A stretch of 64,000 bases of DNA from Thioalkalivibrio sp. XN8 (lineage in GTDB: Bacteria; Pseudomonadota; Gammaproteobacteria; Steroidobacterales; XN24): NCBI RefSeq assembly GCF_011058255.1, contig NZ_JAALFH010000065.1:19735-83734 (forward strand), written 5' to 3'. The position numbers were made by a program, and so were the translations under genes. The notes below the pieces were generated by a model, which saw only the letters and a program-made list of their open reading frames with translations, did not search any database and was not told the origin of the DNA. Positions 3,176 through 47,332 of the stretch are shown piece by piece; positions within the stretch are counted from its first letter, which is position 1, and every line of letters starts with the position of its first letter.

Positions 3176-5403
3176 CCGGCGTGCGGGCGAGCGTGGTCAA
3201 GCAGTGTGGATGGCGCCGCCATGCAGCGCTGTTCATTCTCGGCATCCTGGCGGTGTTCGCCGCGCACGAGGCCGGTGCACGCCCGACGGTCGGCCTGGTG
3301 CTCAGCGGCGGCGGCGCGCGCGGCGGCGCGCATGTCGGCGTCATTCGCGTCCTGGAAGACCTGAACGTGCCGGTGGATTACATCGCCGGTACCAGCATGG
3401 GCGCCGTGGTGGGCGGACTCTATGCCGCCGGCCTCACTGCCGACGAACTCGAGGAAGTCGTCAGGACTTCCGACTGGAACCTGCTGCTCAGCGACCGCCC
3501 CCCACGTTCGCAACGGTCCTTCCGCCGCAAGTCCGACGACCTCAGCTTCCTGGTGGATTTCGACCTCGGGGTCGACAGCACGGGACTGTTGCTGCCCGGC
3601 GGGTTGGTGCAGGGCCAGAACATGGACCTTGCACTGCGCCGTCTCACCCTTCCGGTCATGGCCATCGAAGATTTCGATCAGCTCCCCATCCCCTTCCGGT
3701 CCGTGGCGACGGATATCGGCAACGGCGAGATGGTGGTGTTCGATTCCGGCGACCTGGTGACCGCGATGCACGCGAGCATGGCGGTCCCGGGCGTCTTCAA
3801 GCCCGAACGGGTCGATGGCCGGCTGCTGGTCGACGGCGGCATATCGAGCAACCTGCCGATCGAGATCATGCGCGACATGGGCGCCGACATCATCATTGCC
3901 GTGGACCTGGGTTTCCCTCTCCAGCCGCAAGAGAAACTCGGCTCCGCCCTGGCGATCACCAGCCAGATGCTCACCATACTCATCAACAGCCGGGCCCAGG
4001 ACCAGCTTCGGTTCCTTGAAGAAGACGATATCCATATCGCACCGGATCTCGGCGCGCTCGGCAGCCAGGAGTTCGACCGGCTGGCGGAAGCCATGGAAAT
4101 CGGTCGTCGCGATGCCGCCAGACATGCGCAGGCCCTGGCTCGTCTCTCCATCCCGGACGAGGCGTATCGCGCTTACCGCGAGGACATCTCGAGGCGCCGC
4201 GGGGCGCCGCCGGTCGTCGACGATGTCCGGGTGGTGAACGATTCCGGCCTGTCGCCCAAGGCCATCGAAGCGCGGTTGCAGCCGTTTACCGGCAAACCGC
4301 TGCAGCTCGACGCGCTGGAGCGCAACATCGCCGACATCTACGCACTGGACACCTTCGAGTCCGTGACCTACGACGTGCGCCAGGAAGACGGCCTCAACAC
4401 GCTGGAGATCAAGAGCACGGCGAGACAGTGGGGACCCAACTACATCCGCTTCGGCATCAACCTCGAGGACGACTTCCAGGGCGGCAGCAACTACAACGTC
4501 GCGGCCCGCCTCACCATGACCGAAATCAACCCCCTCGGCGGGGAGTTCCGCACGGAACTGCAAATAGGCGAGTCGCCGCGCCTGTTCGGGGAACTCTTCC
4601 AGCCGCTGGACTACCGCTCGCGATGGTTCATCAACCCGAAGCTCGAGCTGCGCCGCACCAGCGAGGGGATTTTCGATGACGGCATCCAGCTGGCCCAGCT
4701 CAGCTCCAGCCAGGGCAGCGTGTCGCTGGAAGGTGGACGCCAGCTCGGGCACTGGGGTGAGTTCCGGGTTGGGCTGCTGCGCCTCCGCAGCGACCAGTCC
4801 CTCCTCATCGGGGAACCGGGGCTGGAGGGCGAAGAAGGCAATCTCGGGGCCTGGCTTGCGCAGTTGGCCTACGACACGATCGACCAGGTGGACATCCCGC
4901 TGCACGGTACGCTGGCAGCCGTGGCATGGAATGGCTCGCGCCGCAACATCGGCTCGGACGGCGACTTCGACGTCGGGAGTCTCTTTCTGCTGAAACCTAT
5001 GACCTGGGGCCGTAACACGCTGCTGCACTGGTGGAACCTGGACGCCACGCTGCGTGACGACACGGCGGGGATACAGCCGTTCACGCTCGGGGGCCCCTTC
5101 AGCCTGTCCGGCTACGCGATCGGCGAACTGCGCGGCAAGCACCGCGGCATAGGCCGGCTGCTCTATTATCGCCGGCTCGGCCACGACCCCGTTTCAGGCC
5201 TCGATAACCAGTTCTACGTGGGGTTCTCGCTGGAAGCAGGTAATGCCTGGGAAAGTCGCGAGGCGATAACGCTCAGCAACACCCTCACCGCCGGCAGCCT
5301 GTTCGTCGTCCTGGACACGCTGGTCGGGCCCTTCTATCTCGGCTACGGCATAGGGGAGGACGACCGTCGTTCCGCTTTCCTGTACCTCGGGCAGACCTTC
5401 TGA
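3172..5403 (+). CDS. Patatin-like phospholipase with POTRA and Omp85-type barrel (PlpD-like)
   Basis: The 743-residue protein starts with a signal peptide (hydrophobic residues 18-32, cleavage near 36). A patatin lipase domain follows: oxyanion motif GGGARGG at 46-52, nucleophile elbow GTSMG with Ser75, and the catalytic Asp in DGG at 221-223. Residues about 345-410 look like a POTRA domain, and about 430-743 form an Omp85/D15 beta-barrel ending in an aromatic residue (Phe). This is the type Vd secretion architecture of Pseudomonas PlpD, in which the barrel exports or displays a phospholipase. The start is a GTG at 3172 overlapping the CPBP stop. The lipase triad looks intact. Whether the passenger is released is not visible. 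Confidence 0.9.
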   Translation: MTGVRASVVKQCGWRRHAALFILGILAVFAAHEAGARPTVGLVLSGGGARGGAHVGVIRVLEDLNVPVDYIAGTSMGAVVGGLYAAGLTADELEEVVRTSDWNLLLSDRPPRSQRSFRRKSDDLSFLVDFDLGVDSTGLLLPGGLVQGQNMDLALRRLTLPVMAIEDFDQLPIPFRSVATDIGNGEMVVFDSGDLVTAMHASMAVPGVFKPERVDGRLLVDGGISSNLPIEIMRDMGADIIIAVDLGFPLQPQEKLGSALAITSQMLTILINSRAQDQLRFLEEDDIHIAPDLGALGSQEFDRLAEAMEIGRRDAARHAQALARLSIPDEAYRAYREDISRRRGAPPVVDDVRVVNDSGLSPKAIEARLQPFTGKPLQLDALERNIADIYALDTFESVTYDVRQEDGLNTLEIKSTARQWGPNYIRFGINLEDDFQGGSNYNVAARLTMTEINPLGGEFRTELQIGESPRLFGELFQPLDYRSRWFINPKLELRRTSEGIFDDGIQLAQLSSSQGSVSLEGGRQLGHWGEFRVGLLRLRSDQSLLIGEPGLEGEEGNLGAWLAQLAYDTIDQVDIPLHGTLAAVAWNGSRRNIGSDGDFDVGSLFLLKPMTWGRNTLLHWWNLDATLRDDTAGIQPFTLGGPFSLSGYAIGELRGKHRGIGRLLYYRRLGHDPVSGLDNQFYVGFSLEAGNAWESREAITLSNTLTAGSLFVVLDTLVGPFYLGYGIGEDDRRSAFLYLGQTF

Positions 5404-5480
5404 CGCCCGGTGCGGCGAGGGGTCATGGGCTGGCCTCGATGGCCAGGTCGGCCCGCGCATGATTCGCATGGCGCCCACTT

Positions 5481-5535
5481 TAGCGTCCGACGCTAGTGTC
5501 GAAATGATGCCCGACCCCGCAACGCGGGGCCGGGC
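5481..5535. terminator. Two hairpins between convergent patatin and katG genes
   Basis: A small hairpin (TAGCGT-CCG-ACGCTA, 5481-5495) is followed by a GC-rich hairpin at 5509-5535 with arms GCCCGaCCCCGC and GCGGGGcCGGGC around an AAC loop. No T-run follows on either strand. The position between two convergent genes suggests a bidirectional terminator. Confidence 0.5.
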
Positions 5536-5577
5536 ACCAGGGGGACGCTGCCGGGGGAACAGCAGCGGTCAGGGGAC

Positions 5578-7838
<2,261 letters not shown>

Positions 7839-7924
7839 CCCGCCGGGTTTCGCCTGCGAGCACCGTCTGAGGCAGACTACGCCCCTGGGCCCCGCCGGCC
7901 GGGGCGCCGTTTCCAGGGAGACTG

Positions 7925-9754
7925 ATGCAGCTGCAGCAGGGGTTGATCCTCGCCATCCTCGTCGCCATGGTGACCCTGTTCCTGTGGGGCCGCTGGCGGC
8001 ACGACATGGTGGCGCTGGGGGCCCTGCTGGCGTGCGTGCTGCTGGGCCTGGTGCCGGCCGCCGGGGCCTTCTCCGGTTTCGGCCATCCGGCGGTCATCAC
8101 GGTCGCCTGCGTGCTGGTGCTGAGCCGGGCCCTGCAGGCTTCGGGGGCGGTGGACCTGGTGGTCGAGAAGTTCATGCCGTCGAATGCGGGCCCCCTGCTG
8201 ACTATCGCCGCGCTGACCGGCATCGGCGCCCTGTTGTCGGGCTTCATGAACAACGTCGGCGCCCTGGCGCTGCTGATGCCGGTGGCGCTGCAGATCGCGG
8301 CCAGGCAGGAGCTAGCGCCCGGCCAGGTATTGATGCCGCTGGCCTTCGGCTCCATTCTCGGCGGCATGACGACCATGGTCGGCACTCCGCCCAACCTGAT
8401 CGTCTCGGGCTTTCGCGCCGAAGCGACCGGCACCAGCTTCGCGATGTTCGATTTCACGCCGGTCGGCGCCGCGGTGGCGGCGGCCGGGGTCGTGCTGGTG
8501 ATACTGCTGGGCCGGCTGCTGGTGCCCGTGCGGGAGCGCGGGGGCGTGGAGGAGTTCGAGACCGGCGCTTACATCACGGAAGCCAGGGTCAAGGAAGACA
8601 GCAAGGCAGCGGGGCAACGGCTCGCCGAGATCGAAGCCGCGCTCGAGGAGCACGGGGCCCAGGTGCTCAGCCTGGTGCGCAACGAGGTGCGGGTCAATGC
8701 GCCGCAAGGCAATCGTGTGGTCAAGGCCGATGACATCCTGGTGATCGAGGCAGACCCCGACGGGCTGGGCAGCGCCCTGTCGAGCCTGGGGCTCAAGCTG
8801 GAGGAAGACAAGCCGCGGCCCACGGGCGAACCGATCACGCCCGAGCAGGCCGCAGCAGCAGAGCAGGACGGGGACGGGGACGACGAGCCCCGCGACGAGG
8901 ACAGCGTGCTGGTAGAAGTTGCGGTGCTGCCGGATTCGGCGCTGGTGGACCACTCGGCCAGCCGGCTGCGGCTGCGCACCCGCTACGGCATCAGCCTGCT
9001 GGCGGTATCGCGCCGCGGCCGTCGCTCGCTGGCGCGCCTGCGCACCATGAGCTTCAAGGCCGGCGACGTGCTGCTGCTGCATGGCCCCGAGGACGTCATC
9101 GTGGAGTTCGCCAACGAGACCGGCTGCGTGCCGCTCGCCGGTCGTTCGCTGCGGCTGCCGGACCGGCGCAAGATGCTGTTGTCGACCGGCATCCTGGTCC
9201 TGGCCGTGGGCGGGGCGGCGCTCGGGCTGCTGCCCGCGGCAATTTCTTTCGCCGCCGGGGTACTGGCGACCATGGCGCTGCGGACGCTGCCGCTGCGGCA
9301 GGTCTACGAATCCATCGACTGGCCGGTGATCGTGCTGCTCGGCGCGTTGATCCCGGTCGCGGCGGCGATGGAGACCACGGGCGCGGCGGACCTGGTGGCG
9401 CGGGGGCTGCTCGACGGGGTCGCCCAGGGGAACGCCGTGATCGCGCTCGTCGTCATGCTGGTCGTCAGCATGACGTTGTCCGACCTGATGAACAACGCGG
9501 CCACCGCCGCGATCATGTGCCCGATCGCCATCGGCGCGTCGGCGCAGCTCGGGGTCAACGCCGATCCTTTCCTGATGGCCGTGGCGGTCGGCGCCTCCTG
9601 CGCTTTCCTCACGCCGATCGGCCACCAGAACAACACGCTGATCCTCGGGCCCGGCGGCTTCCGCTTCGGCGACTACTGGCGCCTGGGCCTGCCGCTGGAG
9701 ATCCTGGTGGTGCTGGTCGCGGTACCGATGCTGCTGTGGGTGTGGCCGCTGTGA
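7925..9754 (+). CDS. SLC13/DASS family permease with internal RCK (TrkA-C) domains
   Basis: The 609-residue protein has two blocks of membrane helices (about 1-205 and 415-609) around a soluble central region. The first block carries the GFMNNVGALALLMPVAL motif and the second SDLMNNAATAAIMCPIAIG, the paired inverted-repeat signatures of SLC13-type sodium/anion symporters. The central region (about 225-400) contains two TrkA-C/RCK-C-like modules, a layout of the SLC13 subgroup annotated as sulfate, thiosulfate or dicarboxylate permeases. The ATG at 7925 is preceded by CAGGGAG. It diverges from katG and is followed after 16 bp by mltF, so the two may be cotranscribed. The substrate cannot be read from the sequence. 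Confidence 0.88.
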   Translation: MQLQQGLILAILVAMVTLFLWGRWRHDMVALGALLACVLLGLVPAAGAFSGFGHPAVITVACVLVLSRALQASGAVDLVVEKFMPSNAGPLLTIAALTGIGALLSGFMNNVGALALLMPVALQIAARQELAPGQVLMPLAFGSILGGMTTMVGTPPNLIVSGFRAEATGTSFAMFDFTPVGAAVAAAGVVLVILLGRLLVPVRERGGVEEFETGAYITEARVKEDSKAAGQRLAEIEAALEEHGAQVLSLVRNEVRVNAPQGNRVVKADDILVIEADPDGLGSALSSLGLKLEEDKPRPTGEPITPEQAAAAEQDGDGDDEPRDEDSVLVEVAVLPDSALVDHSASRLRLRTRYGISLLAVSRRGRRSLARLRTMSFKAGDVLLLHGPEDVIVEFANETGCVPLAGRSLRLPDRRKMLLSTGILVLAVGGAALGLLPAAISFAAGVLATMALRTLPLRQVYESIDWPVIVLLGALIPVAAAMETTGAADLVARGLLDGVAQGNAVIALVVMLVVSMTLSDLMNNAATAAIMCPIAIGASAQLGVNADPFLMAVAVGASCAFLTPIGHQNNTLILGPGGFRFGDYWRLGLPLEILVVLVAVPMLLWVWPL

Positions 9755-9770
9755 CGGAAGCGGCACGGTC

Positions 9771-13150
<3,380 letters not shown>

Positions 13151-40451: not shown

Positions 40452-40580
40452 GTTCAGTCCCCTTGTCTGTCCCTTGCCCTGTAGATGCGGCAGCCCCGCG
40501 CAGGGTCGCAGTGTCGCGCGCCGCGGCGCGAATGGTAAGCTTCGCGCTCGCGCGCCCCGCCGGGCCGCGCCCCGCACCTC

Positions 40581-40667
40581 GCCCGGGTGGCGGAACTGGT
40601 AGACGCAGCGGACTCAAAATCCGCCGATGGTGACATCGTGCGAGTTCGACTCTCGCCCCGGGCACCA
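40581..40667 (+). tRNA. tRNA-Leu (anticodon CAA)
   Basis: An 87-nt class II tRNA including an encoded CCA end. The acceptor stem is GCCCGGG with CCCGGGC. The anticodon stem GCGGA/TCCGC encloses loop CTCAAAA, giving anticodon CAA at 40615-40617. A variable arm and the T-loop GTTCGACTC follow. It decodes UUG. Confidence 0.96.
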
Positions 40668-40725
40668 GCTCCTCGCTGATCGACCCCTGCCGCCAGCGCA
40701 AGTTGTGCGCTGCGAAAACTACTTA

Positions 40726-40754
40726 TTTTCCCTCCTGCCGCGTGCCTGTATCTT
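40726..40754 (+). promoter_or_regulatory. Candidate promoter of the iron operon
   Basis: A -35-like TTTTCC (40726-40731) and a -10-like TATCTT (40749-40754) are spaced by 17 bp. The Fur-like box starts four bases later, covering the expected transcription start. Confidence 0.4.
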
Positions 40755-40758
40755 TCTT

Positions 40759-40777
40759 AATGAGAATGGTTCTTATT
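40759..40777 (+). promoter_or_regulatory. Fur box upstream of the porin-cytochrome-feo operon
   Basis: AATGAGAATGGTTCTTATT is a 9-1-9 inverted repeat (seven of nine pairs) close to the Fur consensus. It lies 33 bp before the porin ATG and just after the candidate -10, an ideal place for iron-dependent repression. Confidence 0.75.
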
Positions 40778-40809
40778 TCGGTTTCCCCGTATTCGACAGG
40801 AGCAAAGTG

Positions 40810-42135
40810 ATGACCAGCGCGGCGACCCACTCACCAGGCAAGATTCCGTTGCACCCGGGCCGCAGGGCCCCGGCCCGCTGGGCCGCCGTTGCCGGATCAG
40901 CAATCCTGCTGCTGGCGGGCGCCGCCGGCCAGGCGCATGCCGCCGAGGGGGATTCCCTGGCCACCCGCGCCACCCTGACCGGGGACTGGGGCGGGCTGCG
41001 CTCGGAATGGGCGGTCAGCGGGGTCGAGATCGGCATCGAGCATTACGGCGACGTGTTCGCCGTCGTCGAGGGCGGCGCCGAAGAAGAGACCTACTACGCC
41101 GGGCTGCTGGAAGTCGGCATCGACTTCGACCTCGAGGCACTGCTGGGCTGGCCGGCCACGCGCGCCTTCGTGCTGGGCATCGGCACTTTCGGGCGTGATC
41201 CCGCCGACGGCGCCGGTTCCGTGCACGCGCCGAGCAACCTTGCCAATATTCCCACCGGCAAGGTGCTGGAAGCGTGGCTGGAGCGTGACTTCATGGACGG
41301 GCGGCTCGCAGTGCTGGGCGGCCTGTACGGGGTCGACAGCGAATTCGACGTCAAGGAAACCGCGGGCGTCTTCATGAACGGCGGTTTCGGTACCGGCCTG
41401 GACCTGTCCGAGACCGGCCTCAACGGGCCCTGCGTATATCCCACCACCTGCCTGGGGGTCCGGGCCCGCTACCAGCCGGACGAGGCACGCTATTTCCAGT
41501 TCGCCGTGCTCGACGGCGTGGCCGGTGATCCGGACCAGCCGCATGGCACGCAGATCAGTCTCAACAGCGACGACGGCCTGCTCGTCCTCGGCGAGGCCGG
41601 GTTCCAGCGCGGCGCCGGCGAAGGCCGGTTCCTGCGGGCCGCCGTCGGCGCCTGGGCGTATACCACCGATTTCGAAGAACTGCTGCCGCCGGCGCCGGGC
41701 GCCACGCCCGGCGAGCAGAGCGGGACCCAGGGCTTCTATGCATTGCTGGAAGGCGACCTGTACCGGGAGCCCGGCCAGACCATGGAGGGCCTGAGCGGCT
41801 TCCTGCGCATCGGCATCGCCGACGAGACCGTCAACCCGATCGGCAGCTATGCGGGAGCCGGACTGGTCTACACCGGCCTGTTCCCGAATCGCGCCGAGGA
41901 CCTGCTGGGACTGGGCGTGTCCGCCGCCTTCAACGGCGACGACTTCAAGGACGCCCAGGCCCAGGCCGGCGCCCCGGTCGAAGACGCCGAAGTCGCGGTC
42001 GAACTGACCTACTGGATGCCGCTGCTGCCTTGGTTCAGCCTGCAGCTCAATGCACAGTACATCAGCAATCCTTCCACCGATCCGGCGCTGGACGACGCTC
42101 TGCTGCTCGGCCTGCGTTACCAGCTTACGTTCTGA
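40810..42135 (+). CDS. OprB-type porin at the head of a feo operon
   Basis: The 441-residue protein has a long signal peptide (hydrophobic 25-40, cleavage after AHA at 44) and a beta-barrel of the carbohydrate-porin OprB family: LTGDWGGLRSEWAVSGVEIGIEHYGD at the start, FMNGGFGTG and YQPDEARYFQFAVLDGVAGDP in the middle, and a final strand LLLGLRYQLTF ending in Phe. The ATG at 40810 has AGGAG before it. The OprB name reflects family only: its Fur box and its neighbours (a cytochrome c lipoprotein and FeoABC) point to an outer-membrane channel for ferrous iron or an iron complex. This is inference from context. Confidence 0.85.
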   Translation: MTSAATHSPGKIPLHPGRRAPARWAAVAGSAILLLAGAAGQAHAAEGDSLATRATLTGDWGGLRSEWAVSGVEIGIEHYGDVFAVVEGGAEEETYYAGLLEVGIDFDLEALLGWPATRAFVLGIGTFGRDPADGAGSVHAPSNLANIPTGKVLEAWLERDFMDGRLAVLGGLYGVDSEFDVKETAGVFMNGGFGTGLDLSETGLNGPCVYPTTCLGVRARYQPDEARYFQFAVLDGVAGDPDQPHGTQISLNSDDGLLVLGEAGFQRGAGEGRFLRAAVGAWAYTTDFEELLPPAPGATPGEQSGTQGFYALLEGDLYREPGQTMEGLSGFLRIGIADETVNPIGSYAGAGLVYTGLFPNRAEDLLGLGVSAAFNGDDFKDAQAQAGAPVEDAEVAVELTYWMPLLPWFSLQLNAQYISNPSTDPALDDALLLGLRYQLTF

Positions 42136-42145
42136 GGTGCCCGCC

Positions 42146-42721
42146 ATGACATTCCCCATTCCCTCCACCGCATTCAAACTCGCCGCCCTGCCGGCCCTCG
42201 CCCTGGCGCTCGCCGGCTGCCCCGCGGGCTCCGGTCCGACCAGCGACCCCGGCCCGCAGCAGGCGGCGCTGGAATGCCCGCAACCGCGCGACACGCAGCG
42301 CGCGCCCGACACCTACCAGGCCATGACCAACCCGCTCGCGCCCAGCGCGGAAAACCTGGCGCAGGGCCGGGCCCTGTACGAGGCGGATCGTCCCGGCGGC
42401 TCCTGCGCCAGCTGCCACGGGACCGCCGGCGACGGGCGCGGCCCGGTGGGCGCCGGCCTCGTCCCGCCGCCGCGCGACTTCACCTGCGCCCCGACCATGA
42501 CGAGCCTCTCGGATGGGCAGTTGTTCTGGATTGTCGAGCACGGGTCCGGCGCCTTCCACGAGCCCAAGCGCCTGGGGGTGCAGCAGCCGGACCGGCCGGG
42601 ACGCCGCGCCAACCCGACCGCGATGACCAGCTACCGGCAGCAGCTCTCGGACGCCGAGATCTGGCAGCTGGTGCTCTACATGCGGAGCTTCCTCGACACG
42701 CCTGCCGAGCAGGCGCCATGA
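42146..42721 (+). CDS. Cytochrome c lipoprotein of the feo operon
   Basis: The 191-residue lipoprotein (lipobox ALAGC, Cys25) carries one class I haem motif, CASCH at 87-91, and a plausible axial Met in the NPTAMTSYRQQLSDAEIW segment near the C-terminal helix. Two further cysteines (Cys44, Cys114) could form a disulfide. It starts 10 bp after the porin stop and precedes feoA by 38 bp. Its likely position is the periplasmic face of a membrane, where it could exchange electrons with iron passing from porin to FeoB. Direction and partner are unknown. Confidence 0.88.
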   Translation: MTFPIPSTAFKLAALPALALALAGCPAGSGPTSDPGPQQAALECPQPRDTQRAPDTYQAMTNPLAPSAENLAQGRALYEADRPGGSCASCHGTAGDGRGPVGAGLVPPPRDFTCAPTMTSLSDGQLFWIVEHGSGAFHEPKRLGVQQPDRPGRRANPTAMTSYRQQLSDAEIWQLVLYMRSFLDTPAEQAP

Positions 42722-42759
42722 CCTTCGCCCCGGCCGCGGCGGCGGCAAGGAGAACCGAC

Positions 42760-42990
42760 ATGACCACCCTCAATGAACTGCTGGTCGGCGAGCGCGCCCG
42801 GATCGTCGGCTTCGACGGCGCCTCCCCGTCTTACCGGCGCAAGCTGCTGTCGCTCGGCCTGACTCCGGGCGCCGTCGTGCACGTCGCCCGCGTGGCGCCG
42901 CTGGGCGACCCGATGGAGGTCCGCGTGCGCGGCTTCTCCATGTCGCTGCGCAAGACGGAAGCGGCCGCATTGCTCGTGGAGAAAGTGTGA
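42760..42990 (+). CDS. feoA: Ferrous iron transport accessory protein FeoA
   Basis: The 76-residue SH3-like protein has the family's YRRKLLSLGLTPGAVVHVARVAPLGDPMEVRVRG core. It is thought to interact with FeoB at the cytoplasmic face. The ATG at 42760 has AAGGAGA before it; the stop overlaps the feoB start (TGATG). Confidence 0.95.
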   Translation: MTTLNELLVGERARIVGFDGASPSYRRKLLSLGLTPGAVVHVARVAPLGDPMEVRVRGFSMSLRKTEAAALLVEKV

Positions 42991-45314
42991 TGAAGACGAA
43001 CTTCACCCTCGGCCTGGTAGGCAACCCCAACTCCGGCAAGACCACCCTCTTCAACGCCCTGACCGGCGCCCGGCAGAAGGTCGGCAACTGGCCCGGCGTC
43101 ACCGTGGAACGCAAGACGGGCGAGTTCGCTTTCAACGGCCAGCCGTTCACGGTCGTGGACCTGCCCGGCACCTACTCCCTCGACGTCGTGGACCATGAGA
43201 TCTCGCTCGATGAGCAGATCGCGCGCGACTTCGTGCAGGGCGAAGAAGTCGACCTGATGATCAACGTGGTCGACGCCTCGAACCTCGAGCGCAACCTGTA
43301 TCTCAGCACCCAGCTGGCCGAGATCGGCGTGCCGTTGCTGGTGGTGCTGAACATGGTGGACGTGGCGGAGACCGCCGGGCTCGACATCGACCCGGCGCGC
43401 CTGGCCGCCCTGCTCGGGTGCCCGGTGGCCTGCGTCGTCTCGTCGACCGGCAAGGGCATTCCCGAGCTGAAACAGCTGATCCTGGAGCTGGCCGAGGCGC
43501 CGCCCCGCTCGGCCCTGGCGGTGCCCTACCCCGCCCCGGTCGAGCAGGCCCTGGCGCGCCTCGGGGCACGGCTCGACAGCGACGAGACCGCCGCGACCGC
43601 GCCGCGCTGGCGCGCGATCCAGCTGCTCGAAGGGGATCCGAAAGCCCTCGAGCGCGCCGGGCCCGAGCTGGCGGCGGCCGCGGCCGGGATGCGCGACGAG
43701 CTGGCGGACGACCTGGACATCATGATCGCGGACGGGCGCTACGGCTTTGCCAACCGCGCGGTGAGCGAGGCTGTGAAGGTGACCGGGCGCAGCAGCGCGA
43801 ACGTGACCGAGCGCCTCGACCGCGTGGTGCTGAACCGCGTGCTCGGCATCCCCATCTTCCTGCTGCTGATGTACCTGGTCTTCATGCTGACCATCAACAT
43901 CGGCAGCGCCTTCATCGACTTTTTCGACCAGTTCGTCGGCACGATTGCGATCGACGGCCTGGCGGCCATGCTGGGCGCGGCGGGATCGCCGGACTGGCTG
44001 ACCGTGCTGCTGGCCGACGGCATCGGCGGCGGCCTGCAGGTGGTGGCCACCTTCATCCCGGTCATCGCCTTCCTGTACTTCTTCATCTCCATCCTGGAGG
44101 ACTCGGGCTACATGGCGCGGGCCGCCTTCGTCATGGACCGGCTGATGGGCTGGATCGGACTCCCGGGCAAGAGCTTCGTGCCGCTGATCGTGGGCTTCGG
44201 CTGTAACGTGCCGTCCATCATGGCCACCCGCACCCTGGAACAGCGGCGCGACCGGCTGCTCACCATCGCCATGGCGCCGTTCATGTCCTGTGGCGCCCGG
44301 CTGCCGGTGTACGTGCTGTTCGGCGCCGCGTTCTTCCCGCATGGCGCGCAGAACGTGGTGTTCGCGCTGTACCTGATCGGCATGATCGCGGCGGTGGCCA
44401 CCGGACTGGCGCTGAAGAACACCCTGCTGCAGGGGCAGTCCGCGCCCTACATCATGGAACTGCCCCGCTATCACATGCCGACGCTGCGCGGCCTGATGAT
44501 CCACACCTGGGATCGCCTGAAGAGCTTCATCGTGCGGGCCGGCCGGGTGATCGTGCCCATGGTGCTGGTGCTGAACGTGCTCAACTCCATCGGCACGGAC
44601 GGCAGCTTCGGCAACGAGGACAGCGACCGCTCCGTGCTGGCCGAGGTCGGGCGGACCATCACGCCGGCTTTCTCCCCCATGGGTCTCACCGAAGACAACT
44701 GGCCCGCCGCGGTCGGCATCTTCACCGGCATCCTGGCCAAGGAAGCCGTCGTGGGCACCCTGGACGCGGCCTACACGGCCCTGGGCGCCGCGGACACGGG
44801 TGCTGTGACCGGCGAGGAAGAGGCCTTCGACCTGTTCGGCGGCCTGGCTGCAGCCTTGGCCACGATCCCGGCCAACCTGGTCGATGCGCTGGGCGGCTGG
44901 GCCGATCCCCTCGGCCTCGGCGTCGGCGATCTCAGCGATCTCGAGAGCGTCGCCGCGGAGCAGGAAGTGGCCAGCGCCACCTTCGGCGCCATGGCCCTGC
45001 GCTTCGACGGCACCGCCGGCGCCTTCGCCTACCTGCTGTTCATCCTGCTCTACTTCCCCTGCACGGCCGCCATCGCGGCGGTCTACCAGGAGTCGGGCGC
45101 GCGCTGGGCGGGCTTCGTCGGGTTCTGGACCACGGGCATGGCTTACGGCCTCGCGACCATCTACTACCAGGCCGCGATTTTCTACCGCGATCCCTCCCAT
45201 GCCACGGCCTGGATCGCCGGAGTGATCGCTGCCATGACCGCCACCGTGCTCGTGCTGCGACACATGGGACGCCAGTCGCTCGGCGCCCCGGTGCGGGTCG
45301 GCGAGAGCCGCTGA
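42990..45314 (+). CDS. feoB: Ferrous iron transporter FeoB
   Basis: The 774-residue inner-membrane protein imports Fe(II). The N-terminal G domain has P-loop GNPNSGKT (11-18), switch II DLPGTYSL and specificity motif NMVD. A GDI-like helical domain (about 170-270) follows, then the membrane part with two Gate motifs, including the GCNVPSIMATR segment and LFILLYFPCTAAIAAV. The ATG at 42990 is used rather than the GTG one codon earlier. It is cotranscribed with feoA and feoC. Confidence 0.97.
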   Translation: MKTNFTLGLVGNPNSGKTTLFNALTGARQKVGNWPGVTVERKTGEFAFNGQPFTVVDLPGTYSLDVVDHEISLDEQIARDFVQGEEVDLMINVVDASNLERNLYLSTQLAEIGVPLLVVLNMVDVAETAGLDIDPARLAALLGCPVACVVSSTGKGIPELKQLILELAEAPPRSALAVPYPAPVEQALARLGARLDSDETAATAPRWRAIQLLEGDPKALERAGPELAAAAAGMRDELADDLDIMIADGRYGFANRAVSEAVKVTGRSSANVTERLDRVVLNRVLGIPIFLLLMYLVFMLTINIGSAFIDFFDQFVGTIAIDGLAAMLGAAGSPDWLTVLLADGIGGGLQVVATFIPVIAFLYFFISILEDSGYMARAAFVMDRLMGWIGLPGKSFVPLIVGFGCNVPSIMATRTLEQRRDRLLTIAMAPFMSCGARLPVYVLFGAAFFPHGAQNVVFALYLIGMIAAVATGLALKNTLLQGQSAPYIMELPRYHMPTLRGLMIHTWDRLKSFIVRAGRVIVPMVLVLNVLNSIGTDGSFGNEDSDRSVLAEVGRTITPAFSPMGLTEDNWPAAVGIFTGILAKEAVVGTLDAAYTALGAADTGAVTGEEEAFDLFGGLAAALATIPANLVDALGGWADPLGLGVGDLSDLESVAAEQEVASATFGAMALRFDGTAGAFAYLLFILLYFPCTAAIAAVYQESGARWAGFVGFWTTGMAYGLATIYYQAAIFYRDPSHATAWIAGVIAAMTATVLVLRHMGRQSLGAPVRVGESR

Positions 45315-45324
45315 GGAGCTGCCG

Positions 45325-45555
45325 ATGTTATTGTCTCGACTGACCGATTACCTGGCGCACCGTGGTCGCGCCAGCCTGCGGGAAATCGCGCTCGGGGTCG
45401 AAGCCGACCCCGGCGCCCTGCGGGGCATGCTCAGCCTGCTGGAACGCAAGGGATGCGTCCGCAGGCTGGGCGCCGACCAGCGCTGCTCGGAGTGCACGCG
45501 CTGCCCGGCGGGTACCACCGAAGTCTACGAGTGGTGCGGCAGCGCGCTGCAGTGA
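45325..45555 (+). CDS. feoC: FeoC-like winged-helix protein with cysteine cluster
   Basis: The 76-residue protein has an N-terminal winged helix (about 1-50: LLSRLTDYLAHRGRASLREIALGVEADPGALRGML) and a Cys-rich wing: Cys44, Cys54, Cys57, Cys60 and Cys71. FeoC proteins bind an Fe-S cluster through such cysteines and regulate FeoB stability or feo expression. It closes the feo operon, 10 bp after feoB. Confidence 0.88.
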   Translation: MLLSRLTDYLAHRGRASLREIALGVEADPGALRGMLSLLERKGCVRRLGADQRCSECTRCPAGTTEVYEWCGSALQ

Positions 45556-45618
45556 GGCCCGGTGGCAGCGCCGGCGCGCGGGAGGCAGAATAGCGCCACC
45601 CTCTAGACCGGGACGGCG

Positions 45619-46161
45619 ATGAAATACTGCACCGAGTGCGGCGGCTCCCTCGAGTTCCGCATCCCCGCCGGCGATGGCCTGCCGCGCCACGTCTGTACGG
45701 CCTGCGGCAAGGTCCACTACGTCAACCCGCTCGTGGTGGTCGGCTGCGTCCCCGAGCACGGCGAGCGCATCCTGCTTTGCAAGCGCGCGATCGAGCCGCG
45801 CTATGGCTACTGGACCATCCCCGCGGGCTTCATGGAGATCGGCGAGAGCCTGGCCGAGGGCGCCATGCGCGAAACCCTCGAGGAAGCCCGGGCGCGGGTG
45901 GACATCCACGACCTGTTCGCCGTGGTGGACGTGGTCCACGCGAAGCAGGTGCACCTCATGTACCGGGCCACGCTGCTGGACGGCGAGCACGCCGCGGGGG
46001 ACGAGAGCCTCGAGACGCAGCTGTTCCTGCCCGAAGAGATCCCCTGGGACGATATCGCCTTCCTGTCGGTGCGTTTCGCGCTGGAAAAGTTCCTCGAGGA
46101 CCGCGCCGCCGGCCTACGCCGGCTGCACACCACGGTCATCGACCGCAATCGTCCCGCTTGA
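45619..46161 (+). CDS. NUDIX hydrolase with N-terminal zinc ribbon
   Basis: The 180-residue protein has a zinc ribbon (Cys4, Cys7, Cys26, Cys29) and a NUDIX box at 70-92 (GFMEIGESLAEGAMRETLEE). The box's late Gly is replaced by Arg91. The layout resembles NudC-like and related zinc-ribbon NUDIX pyrophosphatases but is shorter than E. coli NudC. The substrate (NADH, ADP-ribose or other) cannot be told. It starts 63 bp after feoC. Confidence 0.88.
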   Translation: MKYCTECGGSLEFRIPAGDGLPRHVCTACGKVHYVNPLVVVGCVPEHGERILLCKRAIEPRYGYWTIPAGFMEIGESLAEGAMRETLEEARARVDIHDLFAVVDVVHAKQVHLMYRATLLDGEHAAGDESLETQLFLPEEIPWDDIAFLSVRFALEKFLEDRAAGLRRLHTTVIDRNRPA

Positions 46162-46247
46162 GCCCGCCGGGGATGCCTGTGGCACAATAAGGCGCTGATC
46201 GCGCCCGCCCGGGCGCCGGCCGCCAGATACCCGGAGACACGCTCGCC

Positions 46248-46571
46248 ATGACCTTTGTCGTCACCGAGAACTGCATCAAGTGCAAGTACATGGACTGCGT
46301 CGAGGTCTGCCCCGTGGACTGCTTCCACGAGGGCCCCAATTTCCTCGTCATCGATCCCGAGGAGTGCATCGACTGCACCCTGTGCGAGCCCGAGTGCCCG
46401 GCCGAGGCGATCTTTTCCGAGGAAGACCTCCCGTCGAGCCAGGTGCACTTCATCGAGCTCAACAAGGAACTCTCGGCGCAGTGGCCGGTGATCACCGAAA
46501 AGGGCGACCCCCCGGCCGATGCCGAGGAGTGGGACGGCAAGCCCGACAAGCTCCAGCACCTGGAGCGCTAG
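46248..46571 (+). CDS. fdxA: Seven-iron ferredoxin FdxA
   Basis: The 107-residue ferredoxin has two cluster motifs: [18 protein letters not shown] (3Fe-4S type with the extra Cys) and [12 protein letters not shown] (4Fe-4S). The acidic C-terminal tail (about 60-107) is typical of FdxA from Azotobacter-like proteins. The stop codon's last base begins a 40-bp palindrome. Confidence 0.95.
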
Positions 46572-46610
46572 GTCCTGGGGACAGTCCCCATGGGGACTGT
46601 CCCCAGGACC
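46571..46610. repeat. Perfect 40-bp palindrome between fdxA and dsbC
   Basis: Two 20-bp arms meet without a spacer; each arm reads GGTCCTGGGGACAGTCCCCA or its complement. The GGTCCTGGGGACAGTCCCC core is identical to that of the palindrome at 38212-38248. Lying between convergent genes, it starts on the last base of the fdxA stop and ends 5 bp before dsbC's stop, so it can serve as a bidirectional terminator. Confidence 0.92.
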
Positions 46611-46615
46611 GGTCC

Positions 46616-47332
46616 CTAGTTCGCGTCCAGCCAGGCCGCCAGCCGGTCCGCGGGCACGTAACCACGCGCCACGCCCTTATCGGTCAGGATCGCCGGCGTC
46701 CCGCTGATACCCAGCTCCCGCCCGATGTCGTAGTGCTCCTGCACCGGCGTGTCGGGACAGCTCTTCGCCTTGATGTCCTCGCCCGCCTTGGCACGGGTGA
46801 GCGCGTCCTGCCGGTCCGGCGAGCACCAGACGGTGTCCGCCTTGTTCCAGCCGGGCGAGCCCTGGCCGCCGAGCGGGTAGAACATGTAGCGCACCTCGAT
46901 CCCCTGCGCGTGATAGGACTCGAGCTCGCGGTGCAGGCGGCGGCAGTAAGTGCAATCGATGTCGGTCAGCACGGTGATGGTGTGGCGGACTTCGCCCTCG
47001 GGCGTAAACACCACCATGCGCGACGCGTCCAGGCGGTCGCTCACCCTGGCAAGCTGCTGGGCAGTCCACTCGTTGCGCCGGTCATCGGTGAGGTTGCGGT
47101 CCGTCATCATGTCGATGAGGTCGCCGCGGACCATGTAGCGGCCGTCCTCGCTCAGGTAGACCACCTGGCCGGCCAGCGCGACTTCCCACAGGCCCGCGAC
47201 AGGCGTCGGGCTGATGTTCTCGGCTTCCACGCCGGGAAACATGGAGGCCAGCCGCTCCTCGGTGGACGCATCCTCGGCAACGGCCGAGGGCAACAGGGCG
47301 GCGAGCGCGATAGTGGCGATGAAAGAGGACAT
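46616..47332 (-). CDS. dsbC: Thiol:disulfide interchange protein DsbC
   Basis: The 238-residue periplasmic isomerase has a signal peptide (1-19), an N-terminal dimerisation domain (about 25-85) and a thioredoxin domain with active site CTYC (127-130) instead of the E. coli CGYC. The structural pair Cys170 and Cys192 and the cis-proline loop GISGTPAI are present. It corrects non-native disulfides. It lies downstream of xerD in the same direction, the order xerD-dsbC known from E. coli. Confidence 0.93.
   Translation of the reverse strand: MSSFIATIALAALLPSAVAEDASTEERLASMFPGVEAENISPTPVAGLWEVALAGQVVYLSEDGRYMVRGDLIDMMTDRNLTDDRRNEWTAQQLARVSDRLDASRMVVFTPEGEVRHTITVLTDIDCTYCRRLHRELESYHAQGIEVRYMFYPLGGQGSPGWNKADTVWCSPDRQDALTRAKAGEDIKAKSCPDTPVQEHYDIGRELGISGTPAILTDKGVARGYVPADRLAAWLDAN

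Follow-up and report, generated by a model that had tools for sequence, protein, structure and literature searches.

FeoB transports ferrous iron, Fe(II). Excerpts of the literature, on which our comparison draws, state the general assumption that Fe(II) diffuses through non-specific porins of the outer membrane (PMC5378763), and also describe two systems that lie close to the locus reported here. In Acidithiobacillus ferrooxidans and Acidithiobacillus thiooxidans the gene for an OprB-family porin lies directly before feoABC, in a cluster with a Fur box known as FeoPABC; in Acidithiobacillus caldus feoP is unlinked from feoABC (PMC2631029), and the Fur protein of this species binds and represses feoA and feoP (PMC7237784). 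In Francisella tularensis high-affinity uptake of Fe(II) uses the outer-membrane protein FupA, with FeoB as the following step (PMC5378763). Our locus comes from Thioalkalivibrio sp. XN8, where a stretch of 64,000 nucleotides (hereafter the window) hosts a plus-strand array of five genes, for a porin, a cytochrome that we call CytF, FeoA, FeoB and FeoC, behind a 19-bp palindrome (Table 1).

We read this array as an operon for Fe(II) uptake under repression by Fur, into which an OprB-family porin was recruited and a one-haem lipoprotein added as periplasmic electron carrier, a reading that we judge probable, if only just. That the operon is a Fur-controlled unit for Fe(II) uptake is very probable. 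With FeoPABC it shares a same-strand OprB-family porin gene ahead of feoABC and a Fur box 5′ of the first gene, the latter a site predicted from genome-wide enrichment and iron-gene neighbours; the likeness is one of family and gene position rather than of sequence comparison with the Acidithiobacillus FeoP. It differs in the single cytochrome gene that separates the porin gene from feoABC, whereas the excerpts of the published account name no cytochrome in the cluster (PMC2631029). With FupA it would have in common an outer-membrane protein that is specific for Fe(II) and works together with FeoB, but FupA belongs to a family described as unique to Francisella, not to OprB, and again the excerpt names no cytochrome (PMC5378763). 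The preliminary description of this DNA had called the locus the strongest candidate in the window for an undescribed system. Because a porin before feoABC has already been published, as far as the excerpt of PMC2631029 goes, the label does not hold for the porin and feoABC, and applies at most to the cytochrome. The idea of a dedicated porin is not new, backed as it is, by analogy, by the FeoPABC precedent; the cytochrome seems to be what is new, within a single genus. In the open-access literature, largely titles and the openings of abstracts, we found no published report of a c-type cytochrome gene within a feo operon.

As predicted from sequence, the case comprises the gene content, the array, the Fur-type box, the OprB fold, a class I-like cytochrome and conservation in three species. 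The preliminary description had listed five plus-strand genes with gaps of 10, 38, 0 and 10 bases, encoding an OprB-type barrel, a one-haem lipoprotein, FeoA, FeoB and FeoC. The open reading frames (ORFs) of the window agree with this, with distances of 10, 38, -1 and 10 bases (the feoB ATG overlaps the feoA stop by 1 base), and Pfam places all five products above its cut-offs. The porin matches OprB (PF04966) at 3e-51, with 175 bits against a cut-off of 22.9, and is the sole OprB match in its own genome. CytF matches Cytochrome_CBB3 (4e-10) and Cytochrom_C (2e-9), and FeoB matches FeoB_N (3e-61) as well as Gate and FeoB_C, such that the Feo system is complete by Pfam: FeoA, FeoC and the GTPase, Gate and C-terminal parts of FeoB. 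The NCBIfam models are more demanding. Of the five proteins only FeoB passes a curated cut-off there (NF007105, 825 bits, cut-off 683; TIGR00437, 614 bits, cut-off 316); FeoA (68 vs 102 bits) and FeoC (19 vs 111) stay below those of their equivalog models, and the porin matches no family. The simple ORF caller that we used is prone to false genes where DNA is GC-rich; we relied on its output only where Pfam or BLAST agreed, and other uses are marked below as read by eye.

The palindrome before the porin gene is very probably, by sequence-based prediction, the Fur box of this organism. We searched with the pattern AATGMGAATNNTTCKYATT, allowing up to 3 mismatches, and with the reversed pattern as control. 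Since the boxes in the window and in a related genome, G011, supplied this pattern, these two match by construction. In the 3.1-Mb genome that hosts the window we found 14 forward and 13 reverse matches (27 strand-counted) against 0 and 0 for the control, and these 27 correspond to 16 distinct places. Besides the operon's own place there are 15, of which at least 8 adjoin iron-type genes (Table 1). Among these neighbours, iron as the substrate of the binding protein and permease at L295 is our guess, and we read the DUF2470/CREG protein at L296 as a HugZ-like haem protein. The remaining 7/15 places lie by a C_GCAxxG_C_C protein, a pair of HMA_2 proteins and an MtrC/MtrF-like cytochrome, with four that have no assigned neighbour. 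In the genomes of six relatives the counts are 54 forward and 49 reverse against 7 and 8 for the control. The palindrome stands 5′ of the homologous operon in G011 (1 mismatch) and in a further relative, G049 (3 mismatches), and it also stands before feoA at plain feoAB loci, 22 bp away in G059 and 23 bp in G074. The 19-bp Fur-like box of the preliminary description thus stands up well, given the 27 vs 0 matches and the iron-gene neighbours. As a separate observation, the MtrC/MtrF-type cytochrome at L294 is lipoprotein-like with 8 CxxCH motifs, and its palindrome, with 3 mismatches, lies just 5′ of the gene.

Both profile and fold assign the porin to the OprB family. In a sequence search it matches Pseudomonas putida OprB at 2e-46 with 23% identity, and its AlphaFold model, with a mean predicted local distance difference test score (pLDDT) of 74.6, superimposes on that protein (PDB 4gey) with a VIA-align Z of 40.1 and a root-mean-square deviation of 2.4 over 386 aligned residues. 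The porin fold is shared, but the P. putida protein is a carbohydrate porin according to the Pfam family description. Alignment with relatives shows operon-specific His, Asp, Glu and Cys positions, which include H78, D133, H139, D176, E201, C208 and C214. The two cysteines are kept in all three operon porins, no cysteine occurs in the compared region of 11 aligned relatives, and Cys208 and Cys214 likely form a disulfide. We also note L170, where the porin that scores best outside the genus in our class sample (41%) precedes genes for a protein without family assignment, for an FMN_bind protein and for a PepSY_TM protein; it lies beside what is likely a periplasmic flavin reductase.

CytF has the make-up of a class I cytochrome c, with a single CxxCH (CASCH, residues 87-91) before a C-terminal axial methionine. 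This ligand is predicted from the alignment, in which Met160 falls together with the Met of most relatives; an insertion of 20-odd residues precedes it. Cys44 and Cys114 are kept in all three orthologues. By the Lol rule the residue after the lipobox cysteine bears on sorting to the outer membrane, and because a proline follows the cysteine of the lipobox-like LALAGC, CytF would be placed at the outer membrane. Its structure model has a pLDDT of 72.6, and its relatives in the PDB are a Kuenenia cytochrome, the cytochrome c552 of Thioalkalivibrio and cytochromes of Alternative Complex III.

G011 and G049, which are the remaining two members of the genus in our order sample, carry the same five genes in unchanged order. 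The identities for porin, cytochrome, FeoA, FeoB and FeoC are 85%, 83%, 96%, 94% and 79% in G011, and 67%, 57%, 68%, 71% and 43% in G049. Porin and cytochrome are under purifying selection, with ratios of non-synonymous to synonymous substitution rates (dN/dS) of 0.228 and 0.215, respectively, between the host genome of the window (G000) and G011.

Table 1. Features of the operon and its surroundings, and of loci elsewhere that are referred to in the text
Feature	Sequence or locus	Position	Strand	Basis or remark
Fur-box-like palindrome AATGAGAATGGTTCTTATT	window	40759-40777	+	32 bp before porin ATG
FeoP-like OprB-family outer-membrane porin, 441 amino acids with signal region	window	40810-42135	+	Pfam, BLAST, fold comparison
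One-haem c-type cytochrome lipoprotein (CytF), 191 amino acids	window	42146-42721	+	Pfam, CASCH, lipobox
FeoA	window	42760-42990	+	Pfam PF04023, 2.8e-23
FeoB, 774 amino acids	window	42990-45314 (from ATG)	+	Pfam and NCBIfam
FeoC, 76 amino acids, cysteine cluster near C-terminus	window	45325-45555	+	Pfam PF09012, 4.6e-15
tRNA-Leu gene	window	40581-40667		upstream of operon
Nudix gene	window	45619-46161	+	3′ of feoC
Ferredoxin gene	window	46248-46571	+	3′ of feoC
Short inverted element GGGGACAGTCCCC/GGGGACTGT	window	46575-46600		past ferredoxin gene, by eye
TonB-dependent receptors	L280, L285, L290 (own genome)			palindrome neighbours
FUR-family gene	L281 (own genome)			palindrome neighbour
Ferritin-like gene	L284 (own genome)			palindrome neighbour, 371 bp away
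Extracytoplasmic function (ECF) sigma gene	L291 (own genome)			palindrome neighbour
Solute-binding protein and permease	L295 (own genome)			palindrome neighbour
DUF2470/CREG protein	L296 (own genome)			palindrome neighbour
MtrC/MtrF-type cytochrome	L294 (G000:C46:12000-29549)	10002-11681		palindrome just 5′
Second feoA-feoB-feoC	L118 (G000:C32:144020-154870)	5070-8215		own genome
Cytochrome c′ gene and two-CxxCH ORF after FeoB	L157 (G428:C5:25424-36079)	7860-9276		class genome
OprB porin in FTR1/FeoB cluster	L152 (G419:C1:579037-589833)			
Best-scoring porin outside genus, with the genes that follow	L170 (G627:C1:276408-289598)	5878-10221		class sample

The surroundings of the operon are also partly conserved: G011 and G049 retain the Nudix and ferredoxin genes in this order, and the transcription unit may reach into both genes.

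How often are porins and cytochromes found near feoB? We examined 80 FeoB loci from 77/203 genomes, of which 79 come from other genomes and 1 is the second locus of the host genome itself; the loci left out were mostly weaker or fragmentary matches, and some of the stretches stop at contig ends. An OprB protein is encoded in 13/77 of these genomes, own included, and lies near FeoB only in the own genome and in G419, at about 3.4 kb. The cluster in G419 has the order P19 (Fe2+ transport protein), OprB porin, cupredoxin, FTR1, Fer4_5 membrane protein and FeoB. Because this cluster too holds one near FeoB, it seems that ferrous-iron clusters have recruited OprB porins, which are barrels of general purpose, on more than one occasion.

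For cytochromes, none of the 80 loci has a CxxCH ORF among up to 4 upstream same-strand ORFs of FeoB. A wider search on both strands, within 2.5 kb of FeoB, gave the candidates L112, L143, L148 and L157, plus L118 in the own genome; L143 and L148 look spurious. At L157 a true cytochrome c′ (PF01322, 1.8e-29) is encoded directly after FeoB, and a two-CxxCH ORF was also seen 3′ of FeoB. At L118, the second feoABC of the host genome, a divergent gene encodes a one-haem cytochrome c′-like protein (PF01322 E 0.0011, below the cut-off), whose sole notable match with CytF covers 12 residues round the haem site. The pair of FeoB and cytochrome of this type is also present in G011 and in G067, which represents another genus of the same family; in G049 we found neither the second FeoB nor the cytochrome. 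The stretches fetched around homologues of this cytochrome in five further genomes of the order (G064, G008, G218, G028 and G109) show no adjacent FeoB. Judged by sequence, cytochromes near FeoB are uncommon in our sample and in this family appear to have arisen twice, from unrelated proteins. The unrelated cytochrome at the second feo locus thus provides an independent hint of a link between Feo and cytochromes.

We propose the following mechanism. When iron is scarce, Fur would leave its box and the five genes would be expressed together. Fe(II), and perhaps also weak Fe(III) chelates, would enter via the porin. The cytochrome, anchored to the outer membrane on its periplasmic side, would donate electrons to iron and in this way hold it as Fe(II); these electrons would probably come from the respiratory chain on its bc1 side. 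FeoB, aided by FeoA and FeoC, would then bring Fe(II) into the cell. For the electron role of CytF, which we infer, the direction of reduction is favoured. A complete path for Fe(II) had already been suggested in the preliminary description, and of this path the Fur-type box, feoABC and an own porin are supported.

A number of points weigh against the reading of the locus as an operon for Fe(II) uptake to which a porin was recruited and an electron carrier added, the latter in putative contact with iron. The region upstream of the operon agrees with the textbook 19-bp Fur consensus in at best 12/19 positions, and 55/1000 shuffles do equally well; we dropped this consensus as a measure and used the own-genome palindrome, with its reversed control. 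A simple scan of 40500-46700 for sigma-70 promoters found 0, and the candidate promoter of the preliminary description is not borne out. The pore loop that carries Cys208 and Cys214 is poorly modelled, with residues 200-211 below a pLDDT of 50. The isoelectric point of the porin is 4.05, and the unlinked relatives L036, L064, L068 and L070 are about equally acidic; we rejected the charge of the porin as a sign of iron selectivity. Because the loop is poorly modelled and the acidity is common to unlinked relatives, iron selectivity cannot be derived from the sequence. FeoP-type porins occur in 29/369 genomes of the class sample and in 42/296 of the order sample (own genome or genus counted), and outside the genus 0/29 and 0/26 of their loci, respectively, lie beside feo within about 1.5 kb per side, where the linkage counts cover match rows with a locus. 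Nor does feo lie beside the porin, within up to 6 kb per side, in the best 80 of 324 confirmed relatives from a collection of 84,980 species; the 324 were drawn by one peptide pattern, many of the best 80 are cut by contig ends, the own or near genomes are possibly absent from this set, and no record in it is titled Acidithiobacillus. None of the 80 FeoB loci hosts a FeoP-type porin. The preliminary description would count it as refuting if porin and cytochrome homologues were mostly unlinked to feo, and outside the genus this largely applies. The complete array is confined to one genus (3 genomes), and because only this genus carries it, its conservation may in part reflect shared descent. 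Three of the four other family genomes carry only a different FeoB (38-39% identical), and in the fourth we found no FeoB at E 1e-30; genera of the same family lack the porin and the cytochrome, and in G059 and G074 a plain feoAB stands behind the Fur-type box.

This narrow distribution also suits another explanation, namely an ordinary FeoPABC-type operon for Fe(II) into which a general periplasmic carrier for respiration was inserted by chance, with no iron-specific role for the cytochrome. We consider this explanation unlikely, though it deserves serious attention. The closest relative of CytF outside the genus (L302/L338, G387:C65; 44% over 154 amino acids) is lipoprotein-like with the same cysteines, as read by eye, and its gene adjoins Usp, CBS and NnrS genes, not feo; its genome, which is 90% complete, has no FeoB above the cut-off. 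Within the fetched stretches none of 27 weaker relatives (L005-L031) and none of 9 others, L302 included (L302-L310), lies beside feo. These non-feo settings are the main evidence against an iron-only role. What argues for a role in iron uptake is that a Fur-controlled position would be odd for a housekeeping carrier, that the cytochrome is retained in G049 at only 57% identity, and that the other feo locus has a second, unrelated cytochrome.

CytF might also work in the opposite direction and take electrons from Fe(II), either for an FTR1-like uptake or to guard the periplasm against surplus Fe(II), with iron entering partly by another route. A partial match with cytochrome 579 of Leptospirillum (NF033864, E 1.2e-13, residues 47-135) points this way, but with 51.2 bits against a curated cut-off of 280 we rejected membership of that family. 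CytF likewise matches, with 37% over 103 amino acids, the cytochrome domain of a 598-residue protein from the same order (L027) that combines FTR1 (4e-23) with Cytochrom_C (4e-13), and which we take to be a cytochrome c/FTR1-type iron permease. There, too, a one-haem cytochrome c is tied to an iron permease, but it is fused to FTR1, whereas CytF is a separate lipoprotein encoded with FeoB and has no FTR1 domain match; FTR1 was found in 0/7 family genomes, own included, and we rejected it as a partner. Given as well that FeoB takes Fe(II), and that control by low iron is ill-suited to detoxification, we regard oxidation by CytF as quite improbable. It is very improbable that the porin serves sugars or solutes in general, is iron-regulated for other reasons and adds nothing to the entry of Fe(II). 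Its plain OprB fold would allow this, as would the many unrelated genes seen by eye next to its relatives, but excerpts of the Acidithiobacillus papers describe a like arrangement with Fur binding (PMC2631029, PMC7237784), and the cluster at L152 hosts an OprB porin together with FTR1 and FeoB.

More broadly, the operon may encode a self-contained Fe(II) path over both membranes, made of a dedicated porin, an outer-membrane-anchored cytochrome that reduces Fe(III) or holds Fe(II) with respiratory electrons, and FeoB, and the coupling of c-type cytochromes to Feo may be a recurring device, at which this family arrived two times with cytochromes unrelated to each other. We put this forward tentatively, and think it rather doubtful. 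With a porin and a cytochrome tied to feoABC under one Fur box, two gene deletions would address how Fe(II) passes the outer membrane and by what means it stays reduced until it meets FeoB.

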